NCBI GenBank assembly: GCA_031180805.1
Contig: JAPSLL010000003.1
Span: 117,574-181,573, forward strand
Origin: Bacillus sp. (in: firmicutes)
Lineage (GTDB): Bacteria > Bacillota > Bacilli > Bacillales > Bacillaceae
Length of the DNA stretch: 64,000 nt
Direction: 5' to 3'
Part shown: positions 3,572 to 16,167 of the stretch, piece by piece
How positions within the stretch are numbered: position 1 is the stretch's first letter
How the letters are laid out: every line of letters begins with the position of its first letter
The notes under the pieces: generated by a model
The model's input: only the letters and a program-made list of their open reading frames with translations
The model's database searches: none
Told to the model about the DNA's origin: nothing
Translations under genes and position numbers: made by a program

Positions 3572-4261
3572 TTAATCTTGCTTAACCTGACTCTCCTTTT
3601 CACCTTTTAGCTTTGCTATCTCCTGATTTAATTCTTCTTCATTCACATAATTGTGATAGAAAGCCTCCTGCTGTGCTAAAGGATTCATAAATTGATTCCC
3701 CGCCTGCACCTCTGCCTCCATTAATGAAATTCGCTCTTCGGCGCGTGCAACTCCTTTCGTAATCGCATCCATTTGGAAGGAGGCAGTAGCATTCTGAATT
3801 TGTTTAATTGATTGTGCCACATTAGCGCGTGACGCTAATAACACCTTTTTATGCTGTAACTCTCTGTAAATATCCTGAAGCTCTTGTAGCTTTTCTTTAA
3901 GAATTTGCGTTTGTCCCTGAATCGCTTCATATTGTTGCTGATAGACAGCAAGTTGTTTCTCGTGAATTAATTTTTCTTGCACAGCTAATCTTGCCATATC
4001 ATCCTCTTTATGAATAATTGCAAGCTTAGCCTGTCTCGTTCTTTTGTCGACTAAGCTTTTCGTTTCCAAAATAAGTGTAGCTTGTTTATTTTCTACAAAA
4101 ATTTGCCGAGACAGTGCTTTTTGAGCCTTCAACATTTCCTGTTCCATTTCTCGAGAATATTCATTTAACAACGCTATCGGATCTTCAATATTATCTAAAA
4201 GACGATTTATATCAGCCTTCGCAATTGTTTTTATTCTTTTAAAAATCCCCATTTTAGTCAT
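3572..4261 (-). CDS. PspA/IM30 (LiaH-like) family protein
   Basis: 229-aa coiled-coil protein starting MGIFKRIKTIAKADINRLLDNIEDP, typical of PspA. Confidence 0.85.
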   Translation of the reverse strand: MTKMGIFKRIKTIAKADINRLLDNIEDPIALLNEYSREMEQEMLKAQKALSRQIFVENKQATLILETKSLVDKRTRQAKLAIIHKEDDMARLAVQEKLIHEKQLAVYQQQYEAIQGQTQILKEKLQELQDIYRELQHKKVLLASRANVAQSIKQIQNATASFQMDAITKGVARAEERISLMEAEVQAGNQFMNPLAQQEAFYHNYVNEEELNQEIAKLKGEKESQVKQD

Positions 4262-4661
4262 TCTCCTTTTTAGTTGTTAGATTTCTTTCCCATTGATCTA
4301 AAATTGTTTCATCTTGATTCATCGGTTTGTGAGAGCTCATTAATGATGTATCGATTAGCTGTTGCATTGAGGACGTCTGTGATTTCTTTCTTAACCATTT
4401 CATTAAGAACATAACAATCACAATTCCAATAATTAGGAATATGAAAAAACCTATCAAAGAAATCCCTCCTCCATGATGAGGACCCTCGATCATCCTACCT
4501 CCACCAAAGCCTCCTCTTGGCCCCATGCTATCAGGTCCATGTCCGTGCGGTCCCATTGCTAGAGCATTATAGCCTCCAAACAAAAAGTAGATTCCCAAAA
4601 CAAATATAGTAATTATCGAACCCCAAGCTATCGTTTTTTTCATTTTCATTTCTCCTTTCAT
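4254..4661 (-). CDS. Small two-TM membrane protein with His/Gly-rich linker, translationally coupled to pspA-like gene
   Basis: MGPHGHGPDSMGPRGGFGGGRMIEGPHHGGG between two hydrophobic segments; 8-bp overlap with the next ORF; good SD. Confidence 0.7.
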   Translation of the reverse strand: MKGEMKMKKTIAWGSIITIFVLGIYFLFGGYNALAMGPHGHGPDSMGPRGGFGGGRMIEGPHHGGGISLIGFFIFLIIGIVIVMFLMKWLRKKSQTSSMQQLIDTSLMSSHKPMNQDETILDQWERNLTTKKEND

Positions 4662-4762
4662 TGTTGATGGGTATAGTTTAGTAGGCTTTGGTGAAAAATT
4701 GGTGAAAGTGCCTGTCTAATATAAAAAATTATGGGGAACATTAATCGTTTTGTAGATTTCAA

Positions 4763-4807
4763 GAAAAAAAAGAGTCAATACATAGAAATGTATAAACTCT
4801 CTTTTTA
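4763..4807. terminator. Bidirectional terminator after the MFS gene
   Basis: AAAAAGAGT..ATACAT-AGAA-ATGTAT..ACTCTcTTTTT. Confidence 0.75.
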
Positions 4808-4843
4808 AAACAATATTTTTACTATTACCTTGTATTTAATATT

Positions 4844-6019
4844 CTAAACTACTATTTTATTTCGATTAAAAGCAAAGATGACCATTATGAAACTTAAAAT
4901 AGCACATATCATATACATAAATGAATATGAGGAAAAGTCAACTACTGGACCCATGATAATTCCACCTAAAGAGACCCCTAAATCTGCCATTGCAATAAAT
5001 AAGCCAAGTAGCACATTACGATTCATCTCTGGCAAAACGAACGTTAAAAACGTTGTTAATGTTGGATAAAGGATTGCTTGAGCTATCCCAATTAATATTG
5101 CCCCTAAATAAAAGAAGAATATCCCTCCTATTATTGAGAAACTTACACATTGTGCAGCGATCGCTAAAAGAAGCATTGTTCCCATAATAAAATATGAATG
5201 CCATTTGCCATCTGAAGGAATGTTTTTTCTTAGCGTAAAGCGAGTAATGACAACAGTTCCTCCCTGTAGCATAAGGAAAATTCCTGCATTACCGTATTTC
5301 AACTGTGCAGCATAAAGTGGGATAAATGCAGTAATAGCCCCAAATACAATCGAAGCCACTAACATCAATATACTGCATTTAAATAAAAATGGGTTTTTCA
5401 CTAACTGGCTAAATGACTTTAATGTGCTTACATCATAATCTTCTTGTGATGAAACAATATCCTCCTTGCCATTTCTTATTTTGGCACTATAGCCAAACAC
5501 TCCTGTAAAAATAGCAATGGCGATCATCACCACTGTAAAATAGTTCATTCCTCCCTGCCAAATACCTAAAGCCAACAATGGACCGAATATACCTGGTAGA
5601 TAAGAAAATAAGGAATATAAGGATATCCCCTGTGATCGTTCCTTTTCTGGAAGGGCATCAATAATCCCTATTTGTAGTGCCATTGAAAAAAAAGCAGTCG
5701 ACACCCCTTGTAACATACGAGCAATTAAATAGCCCCCTAATCCAGTAAATGTATATAGAATTAAGGCAAAGCCGTTAATAATTAAAATAATTCGCAACAC
5801 TTTTATTGGTCCATGCTTTTGAATAATTTGACCTGCCCATGGTCGAAAGAACATGGTTGTTAACAAATATGCCCCCATAATCAAGCCGATTTTAGTATTG
5901 CTTGCTCCTAACACTTCTCCTTGTAAAGGAATAAGGACGTTTAGTATAGAGTTGCCACTAAAATAAAGGAGGACTAGCAAATACAATCGTAAAAAAGGCC
6001 AAGACAAAGCTCCACTCAC
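4844..6019 (-). CDS. cntE: MFS transporter, CntE-like (opine metallophore exporter candidate)
   Basis: 12-TM MFS sequence; last gene of a cntABCDFE-like order. Confidence 0.6.
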   Translation of the reverse strand: MSGALSWPFLRLYLLVLLYFSGNSILNVLIPLQGEVLGASNTKIGLIMGAYLLTTMFFRPWAGQIIQKHGPIKVLRIILIINGFALILYTFTGLGGYLIARMLQGVSTAFFSMALQIGIIDALPEKERSQGISLYSLFSYLPGIFGPLLALGIWQGGMNYFTVVMIAIAIFTGVFGYSAKIRNGKEDIVSSQEDYDVSTLKSFSQLVKNPFLFKCSILMLVASIVFGAITAFIPLYAAQLKYGNAGIFLMLQGGTVVITRFTLRKNIPSDGKWHSYFIMGTMLLLAIAAQCVSFSIIGGIFFFYLGAILIGIAQAILYPTLTTFLTFVLPEMNRNVLLGLFIAMADLGVSLGGIIMGPVVDFSSYSFMYMICAILSFIMVIFAFNRNKIVV

Positions 6020-13782: not shown

Positions 13783-14718
13783 TCAATTCGAATGTAAAAA
13801 ATCTTGTAATGCTTGTTTGTTTTTGTCCAAGTCAATTTTTAGCACTGCTCCAACGTCTACCGTTTCGTCTTCGTAGGAATCTTTAACTGGTATGCGAATC
13901 GTTTCTGTTGATTTTGATTTGCCAGTAATTAATCCCTTTCCTATTGATATTAGAGTTGAAGCATCTACATTTGTATCAATATAAGGGTCAGCCATTCCAA
14001 GTATCTTTGGAAGGTTTACTATATTATGAATACTTATCGCCTGATCTTTAATCTTTGAAACTACTTCTTGCTGTCTTTGTACTCTACCAAAATCACTCAA
14101 TCGATCGTGACGAAAACGAACATATCCTAACAATTCATCTCCTCGTAGCACTTGAGTACCTGGGTGAAGTGTCATTCCTATCCCATAACTCATTTCATAA
14201 GGTATATCAACTTCAATCCCATCTGGTGCAATAAGATCTACAATTTTGGTAAATCCCTCAAAATCAACAATTGCATAGTAGTTAATATCTATATCAAAAT
14301 TATTTTTAATTGTCTTCCTAACTAGCTCTGGTCCACCAAAGGCAAATGCAGCATTGATTTTTTGCATTCCATGATCTGGAATCTCTACATATGTATCTCT
14401 CATAATCGAAGCTATCTTCATTTTATGAGTGTTTTGATTATAGTGGGCAATCATTAATGTATCAGAACGAGCTTGTTTCTCTCCTCTTGAGTCACTTCCA
14501 ATTAATAATATGTTTATTTCTCCAAATTGAGGCTCAGCTCCTTGGAAGTCACCAAATAGATTTCCATCATCTTTATATAAGCCATTCCTAGCTTCAGATA
14601 AACCACTCTTATATTGATAGATGCAATAGCCAGTTATCGCTACACAAACTATAAGAAGTATTGTCACTATCCTTTTTATCCGCTTCCTCTTTTTCCTTAT
14701 AGGTTTTTCTTTCACCAT
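13783..14718 (-). CDS. LytR-CpsA-Psr (LCP) family cell-wall glycopolymer transferase
   Basis: N-terminal TM; NILLIGSDSRGEKQARSDTLMIAHYN, SIMRDTYVEIPDHGMQKINAAFAFGG, GRVQRQQEVV. Confidence 0.92.
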   Translation of the reverse strand: MVKEKPIRKKRKRIKRIVTILLIVCVAITGYCIYQYKSGLSEARNGLYKDDGNLFGDFQGAEPQFGEINILLIGSDSRGEKQARSDTLMIAHYNQNTHKMKIASIMRDTYVEIPDHGMQKINAAFAFGGPELVRKTIKNNFDIDINYYAIVDFEGFTKIVDLIAPDGIEVDIPYEMSYGIGMTLHPGTQVLRGDELLGYVRFRHDRLSDFGRVQRQQEVVSKIKDQAISIHNIVNLPKILGMADPYIDTNVDASTLISIGKGLITGKSKSTETIRIPVKDSYEDETVDVGAVLKIDLDKNKQALQDFLHSN

Positions 14719-14736
14719 AATGCATACATCTCCTAG

Positions 14737-15393
14737 TTATATGTTGAATATATCATTTTTCCCATTTAATAGGTTTAACGATAGTTTCACTGCTACTGCA
14801 TCGTCCAAATATCCAAGTGGAAAGAGATAATCAGGCATGACATCTACTGCAGTAATAAAATAAATGAGTGCACTTCCCATTATTACTAATTCTAATGTTG
14901 TGCCTTTTCTCATTCGAAACCTCTCAAACATTCCCTTTAGTTGATTAATAAACGGACCAATACTTCCTGTTTTTTGTACCTTCGTCTCAAAATTACTAAG
15001 AATATTCTCTTTTCCTTCATCTGTTTGCGAATACTGCTGATAATTTTGCAGCTTTTCTTTAATTCGCTCAATTGAAAATGAGTCATTATATGCTCCTGAA
15101 GCTTGAAGAGTACTTTGAATAATTTCAAGAGATGCATAGATATCCGTGTTCTCTTGTTGCTGATTTAATTCATAACCAGCAGCAACAAATAATTCATACA
15201 CTGGTAACTCCAGACACCTTGCAAATTCTTGTAAATGCTCTGGTTTTGCCTTTCTTTTACCATTAATAATTCTTGATATAGACGCAGCATCAATTGATGT
15301 CATTTCACTAAATTTCCTTATGGAAATTGAACGTTCTTTTAATAAATCCTTTAGCAACGTACCGAGTTTATTCTCTAAAGTTTGTTCTGACAC
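14737..15393 (-). CDS. XRE-family HTH protein fused to DUF1232 (YkvA-like) membrane domain
   Basis: N-terminal HTH_3 (ISIRKFSEMTSIDAASISRIINGKRKAKPEHL); C-terminal ALIYFITAVDVMPDYLFPLGYLDDAVAV. Confidence 0.85.
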   Translation of the reverse strand: MSEQTLENKLGTLLKDLLKERSISIRKFSEMTSIDAASISRIINGKRKAKPEHLQEFARCLELPVYELFVAAGYELNQQQENTDIYASLEIIQSTLQASGAYNDSFSIERIKEKLQNYQQYSQTDEGKENILSNFETKVQKTGSIGPFINQLKGMFERFRMRKGTTLELVIMGSALIYFITAVDVMPDYLFPLGYLDDAVAVKLSLNLLNGKNDIFNI

Positions 15394-15480
15394 TTTAGCT
15401 CATCACCTTTCTTAATAATTCCTCTTGAGCATTTTATTTTAAAGACACATTTTCTGGATTAGAGTTTTAAAATCTTTATG

Positions 15481-15525
15481 AAATATAACCGAACGTTGAC
15501 ACTTTGTCAACGTTCGGTTATATTT
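15481..15525. promoter_or_regulatory. 45-bp palindrome with mirror-image divergent promoters
   Basis: AAATATAACCGAACGTTGACA-CTT-TGTCAACGTTCGGTTATATTT; each strand reads TTGACA-N17-TATATT. Confidence 0.8.
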
Positions 15526-15606
15526 ACAACATCTAAAAAAATAACTACTATTACATGAATTTTGACGTATTGTCAATGAATTACAAATAGATAAGGTGTG
15601 TAAAGC

Positions 15607-16167
15607 TTGAAAAATTCTATTCTATATATCTTGTTATTATTGTCATTTATAATAAACATCTTTTTTACTATTACATCAGCTTTAGATGGCGAGTCGGACG
15701 TAAACGACACAAAATTATCCTTTTCACTAAGTGATATTAAAGGGAATCCAGAGAAAGAACTATTAAAAGTCATTCATAATACGAAAAAGGAGCTTAACAT
15801 TGCCATTTACAACTTTGATAATGAACAAATTTTAGATGCAATACTGAATGCTAAGAAAAGAGGGGTATCTATTAGAATTATTACTGATGCAAAAAAGGCA
15901 GAAAACAACGATAGTAGGGCTATCTTTCAAAATCTCAAAGAGCACAACATACCTATTAAGATTAATAAAGAACAGAAGATGCATATGAAATTATCAATCT
16001 CTGATAAAAAAACTGTTGTAACAGGCTCTTTTAACTATACAAAAAAATCAGCGGAAGAGAATCAAGAAATACTTCTATCTATAAATGACATCAAGATGGC
16101 AAAATCAATGAATAAAGTATTTATGGAATTGTGGGAAAGTGATTCATTAGAGGAATTGGATTTGTAA
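15607..16167 (+). CDS. Secreted/membrane-anchored single-HKD phospholipase D-like (Nuc-type) protein
   Basis: N-terminal hydrophobic signal; HMKLSISDKKTVVTGSFNYTKKSAEENQE contains HxKx4D. Confidence 0.85.
   Translation: MKNSILYILLLLSFIINIFFTITSALDGESDVNDTKLSFSLSDIKGNPEKELLKVIHNTKKELNIAIYNFDNEQILDAILNAKKRGVSIRIITDAKKAENNDSRAIFQNLKEHNIPIKINKEQKMHMKLSISDKKTVVTGSFNYTKKSAEENQEILLSINDIKMAKSMNKVFMELWESDSLEELDL

Follow-up and report, generated by a model that had tools for sequence, protein, structure and literature searches.

A perfect 45-bp palindrome with predicted mirror-image promoters around a conserved candidate operator of XRE-DUF1232 regulators in Bacillales

Autoregulated XRE (HTH_3) regulators such as RM C proteins, ClgR and RghR combine an XRE helix-turn-helix with divergent promoters and a short dyad operator at their own promoter. 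The regulator considered here, termed XRED, shares the helix-turn-helix and is predicted to share the other two features, but differs in its C-terminal DUF1232 domain and in the company of cell-wall genes. In Bacillus subtilis, lipid-II-cycle and LCP genes are controlled by the envelope-stress regulons of sigma M, sigma X and LiaRS. These are ECF sigma factors or a two-component system, whereas XRED combines XRE and DUF1232 domains and has TTGACA-N3-TGTCAA as its candidate operator. BcrR of Enterococcus faecalis is, like XRED, an XRE-type one-component regulator, with a link to antibiotic stress at the cell wall. An UppP is encoded in the BcrR operon, and the BcrR half-sites, GACA...TGTC, are spaced by N7; they would resemble those of the XRED core, where the spacing is N3. 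To our knowledge BcrR has no DUF1232. BcrR has been described as transmembrane (PMC3968067). Bidirectional promoters arising from DNA sequence symmetry in bacteria were reported by Warman et al. 2021, as cited in PMC12340889. As far as that citation describes them, they share with the present case the use of one symmetric DNA element in two directions (predicted here), but in our case two full predicted promoters are mirrored, from -35 to -10, around a candidate operator.

Our searches of the open-access literature returned no functional paper on XRE-DUF1232 proteins or on DUF1232 with a helix-turn-helix, the DUF1232 papers found being on plant RING proteins. The operator letters were absent from the open-access papers searched, XRE together with LCP gave one unrelated paper, and the RghR literature was uninformative on the core site. 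The kind of system, an autoregulated XRE regulator with divergent promoters, is already known; no description of the XRED regulator, operator and regulon was found in the literature searched, which was mostly without subscription papers.

The window analysed is a stretch of 64,000 nucleotides from Bacillus sp. The XRED gene (14737-15393, minus strand, GTG start) encodes 218 amino acids with HTH_3 (PF01381, 34.9 bits) and DUF1232 (PF06803, 37.7 bits) domains, both above the Pfam cut-off of 23. It is followed by a gene for an LCP-family glycopolymer transferase (13783-14718, minus strand), and since the gap is only 18 bp both probably form one operon. In the opposite direction lies a PLD/HKD gene (15607-16167, plus strand, TTG start) for a 186-aa protein with a NucT/Nuc-like single HKD motif. 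This protein is probably secreted or anchored, judging by eye from its hydrophobic N-terminal segment. The flanking genes are thus those named in the earlier note. The HKD-XRED linkage was found in two species only. In the named genome collection the sole relative found was Metabacillus niabensis, with an XRED 93% identical. The predicted model of XRED has moderate confidence overall (mean pLDDT 75), with a weak stretch around residues 181-200. Its best structural matches, RghR, C.BclI, C.Esp1396I, ClgR and HigA, cover the HTH part only and are weak (best E 1.2e-3). Where the BcrR family is marked by several transmembrane helices after the XRE domain, XRED shows one hydrophobic segment, recognized by eye within DUF1232, which suggests that XRED may contact the membrane.

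The palindrome between XRED and HKD (15481-15525, no strand) consists of 21-bp arms at 15481-15501 and 15505-15525, which are 100% complementary around a 3-nt CTT centre (AAATATAACCGAACGTTGACA-CTT-TGTCAACGTTCGGTTATATTT), exactly as first noticed. About 1e-6 perfect arms of at least 21 bp with a short loop are expected by chance in 64 kb at 35% GC. Its inner part has no other match in the window and was matched in 0 of 100 shuffles. Even with 3 mismatches allowed, the 4.58-Mb genome has no second copy of the whole element, which rules out a repeat family or mobile element. A single strand has a strong predicted fold (-30.3 kcal/mol, z = -10), as a terminator or RNA hairpin would. Likewise, in three Metabacillus genomes (L051, L053 and L056, ~1501-1515) the 15-letter core discussed below lies inside a conserved terminator-like hairpin, GGCAGTTGACACGATGTCAACTGCC, adjoining a gene, and therefore the core alone can also arise there by chance. 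At the present locus, however, neither arm is followed by a T-run, no terminator was called, both genes point away so that the element is downstream of neither, and the orthologous cores mostly lack long arms. A role as terminator or RNA hairpin is hence scarcely credible, in line with the view taken in the earlier note.

The same element contains consensus-like sigma-A-type promoter elements on both strands. The predicted rightward promoter (15496-15524, plus strand) has its -35 TTGACA at 15496-15501 and its -10 TATATT at 15519-15524, with a predicted start near 15531; the predicted leftward one (15482-15510, minus strand) has TTGACA at 15510-15505 and TATATT at 15487-15482, with a predicted start near 15475. 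Both read TTGACA-N17-TATATT and match 11 of 12 consensus positions, 5 of 6 in each -10, and the predicted leaders are ~76 and 82 nt long. The proposal of a mirror-image promoter pair is therefore borne out by the letters. Its -35 boxes had been described as interlocking; each does lie inside the spacer of the opposite promoter, but the hexamers do not overlap and are 3 bp apart.

Comparison with related genomes separates a conserved core from variable arms. The palindrome is near-intact in M. niabensis, with one mismatch outside both -10 and -35 boxes. In other genera, XRED orthologues of 35-58% identity keep the core GTTGACA-N3-TGTCAAC just upstream, and the outer arms are not shared. This core, O1 (GTTGACACTTTGTCAAC, 15495-15511, no strand), is the predicted XRED site, on the grounds of its conservation upstream of XRED, LCP and SEDS genes and its genomic co-occurrence. 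Across an alignment of 39 operators, drawn in part from related genomes, the bases 3-7 bp from the centre are all but invariant, the adjoining C is kept in 87%, and almost no information is found beyond 9 bp. The conserved half-site thus comprises ~8-9 bp, GTTGACA with a weak purine/pyrimidine preference outside it. The half-site suggested earlier, CGAACGTTGACA, is too long, because neither its CGAAC part nor the outer arms add appreciable information in this alignment; as an exact dyad with a 1-7 bp gap it occurred in 0 of 99 relatives. At the orthologous operators the first half-site usually doubles as -35 box, and the leftward promoter layout recurs at most of them. One-way operators have the better -10 match on the gene side (4.2 versus 3.3 of 6, P = 0.003, with rows not all independent).

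A weaker second operator with 1 mismatch, O2 (TTGACGTATTGTCAA, 15562-15576, no strand), lies ~30-45 nt into the predicted HKD transcript, in the HKD leader. Its 15 bases are all identical in M. niabensis, and two operator sites are likewise present at the loci of two sister Metabacillus species (G016 and G007). Searched at 0-1 mismatch, the core does not recur elsewhere in the source genome. Sites with 2 mismatches were near background (16 versus 12 for the reversed control) and gave no further targets there; the most symmetric of them, L043, proved to be a small hairpin-like dyad whose neighbour encodes an AI-2E transporter and is no cell-wall gene.

XRED orthologues are split by one branch (support 100/95) marked by residue 47, which directly follows the recognition helix and is R in 30 and Q in 12 of them. 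The transcription units of all 30 R47 genes examined, which come from 15 genera of Bacillales, are headed by the core at no more than one mismatch, 26 of them directly and 4 (L090, L091, L096 and L097) via a leading LCP gene. At this stringency it is absent from all 12 Q47 genes. Three genomes (G429, G391 and G207) encode one XRED of each type, and the rule holds in all of them. Among 399 genomes of Bacillales, the exact 14-letter core was present in 17 of 35 with XRED versus 5 of 364 without (Fisher P = 3e-16, a value in which shared ancestry overstates independence); the reversed control pattern occurred in 3 of the 399. Since the core tracks R47 genes, is concentrated in genomes with XRED and is missing from Q47 genes, XRED is most likely the protein that binds it, and probably acts as an autorepressor. 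The earlier guess that the XRE protein binds the palindrome gains support from the conservation of the core across 15 genera.

An indirect association, with the core being the site of another regulator, could account for the cores in genomes without XRED and for two of the 17 genomes (G028 and G065, both Q47), in which the core is away from the XRED locus; without these two P is 6e-14. Yet stray cores of this kind are about as frequent as matches to the reversed control, several of them fall within reading frames or hairpins, no other gene is common to the core loci as consistently as XRED, and Q47 paralogues in the same genomes lack the core. We therefore regard another regulator as very unlikely and XRED as the candidate binding protein.

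Upstream of four Q47 genes (L111, L115, L116 and L117) weak TGAT-N5-ATCA-like dyads are found where R47 genes have TGAC-N5-GTCA. This is suggestive of a change in operator base specificity between R47 and Q47, from TGAC to TGAT, but was set aside, since Q47 is one clade, its absence of the core counts as one evolutionary event, and the candidate sites are weak. Manganese-related membrane genes (Mntp-family, Nramp) stand beside several XRED genes, mostly Q47 (L104 3679-4260; L092 5068-5715; L111 2228-3550), and by eye the gene upstream in L113 and L115-L117 resembles YtaF/Mntp. The Q47 subfamily may control other targets. In L097 (G232), the region 3682-4900 has two core sites ~785 bp apart and an apparently broken or rearranged LCP gene ahead of XRED.

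Beyond XRED itself, the core is linked to a limited set of genes. LCP ligases are found under it in the XRED operon, divergent from XRED (L098) or separate (L119, L121 and L122), and LCP genes in leading (L090, L091 and L096), divergent or separate positions relative to XRED have a core of their own. SEDS genes (FtsW/RodA/SpoVE) follow XRED in L095, L106, L112, L114, L118, L120 and L123, and are by themselves under the core in L058 and L114. In G438 and G279, BacA/UppP diverges from SEDS at the core, and in G438 a UptA-like DedA protein, below the curated UptA cut-off, is encoded after XRED. The slot divergent from XRED-LCP is occupied by HKD in the lineage of the window and by SEDS in G016 and G007, where the SEDS gene has its own core-containing promoter, TTGACA-17-TATAGT. 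Apart from HKD, the partners all act in the undecaprenyl-phosphate/lipid-II cycle or draw on its products, pointing to a cell-wall regulon of this cycle. Because the source genome has the core once, this regulon is seen in relatives only. The original account had the idea of an XRE operator but missed both the second operator and this regulon. A ComK-family gene diverges from an XRED-LCP-SEDS unit and its operator in L099 (5561-6076, G286).

Taken together, we consider it likely, from sequence evidence, that the palindrome acts as a sigma-A-type promoter in both directions, with a single operator at its heart to which XRED binds, repressing both. An XRED dimer would bind GTTGACA-N3-TGTCAAC at O1 and cover both -35 boxes at once. 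As the half-sites are both -35 boxes, one binding event would silence XRED-LCP leftward and HKD rightward. Repression would be by occlusion, resulting in autorepression of XRED and co-repression of HKD, and O2 might add occupancy or act as a roadblock. In the absence of repressor, the 3-bp distance between the -35 boxes suggests that one polymerase would be accommodated at a time, so that the two directions would compete. Given that the regulon appears to serve the undecaprenyl-phosphate/lipid-II cycle, stress on the envelope or the lipid carrier is the probable inducing signal. Activation by XRED from O1 has a precedent in BcrR, which as XRE-type bacitracin-resistance regulator mediates bacitracin-dependent induction (PMC3968067). 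However, O1 coincides with a well-spaced consensus -35, so that XRED bound there would be expected to block polymerase and an activator would be unneeded, which makes activation quite improbable and repression the preferred reading.

The length of the arms calls for a separate consideration. With one mismatch allowed, arms are longest in the window (22), L131 (21) and L098 (16) and measure 7-14 at 35 other operators. Those three are independent operators common to two candidate target genes, and the chance of their being top is 1.2e-4, although they were chosen after looking and the two-operator loci of G016 and G007 were counted with the others. That long arms go with operators shared by two target genes is hence a lead and not a test. 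Two members of one genus differ, in that G438 has 20-bp arms and G279 lacks arms of this length; two-way use in G438 is uncertain because a candidate promoter of bacA itself lies nearby. Quasipalindromes are known to become perfect through template switching (PMC7202029), which at an operator might create a second -10 in one step. By the same route, with template switching during replication copying the -10 to the other side, the rightward promoter might be a by-product with no selected role, only the leftward XRED-LCP promoter being functional. Most orthologous operators do serve one direction with arms ending at the core, the outer arm sequences differ between lineages, and the long arms in G438 exist despite the candidate promoter of bacA. 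On the other hand, M. niabensis retains the rightward -10 (TATATT, 5 of 6, 17 bp), its lone arm mismatch avoiding the promoter boxes; the promoter scan gave no better promoter for HKD at a sensible distance; and in L098, an independent case, the core shared by XRED and LCP is flanked by a good -10 on either side. A by-product without function is accordingly unlikely in our judgement, and two-way use remains the reading that we favour.

The palindrome observed at the outset is confirmed, and its interpretation is partly supported and extended. A broader picture, which we hold to be possible but rather doubtful, is that a membrane-associated XRED senses the undecaprenyl-phosphate/lipid-II cycle, governs an undescribed multi-family Bacillales regulon and has repeatedly gained two-way promoters by template switching; if true, a divergent neighbour would join the regulon in one mutational step. 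The locus may offer a testable case of a bidirectional promoter arising through the perfecting of an operator palindrome. For the XRE-DUF1232 family, the analysis gives a concrete predicted operator, regulator and target set, and would tie the family to recycling of the lipid carrier and polymerisation of the cell wall, both of them antibiotic targets.
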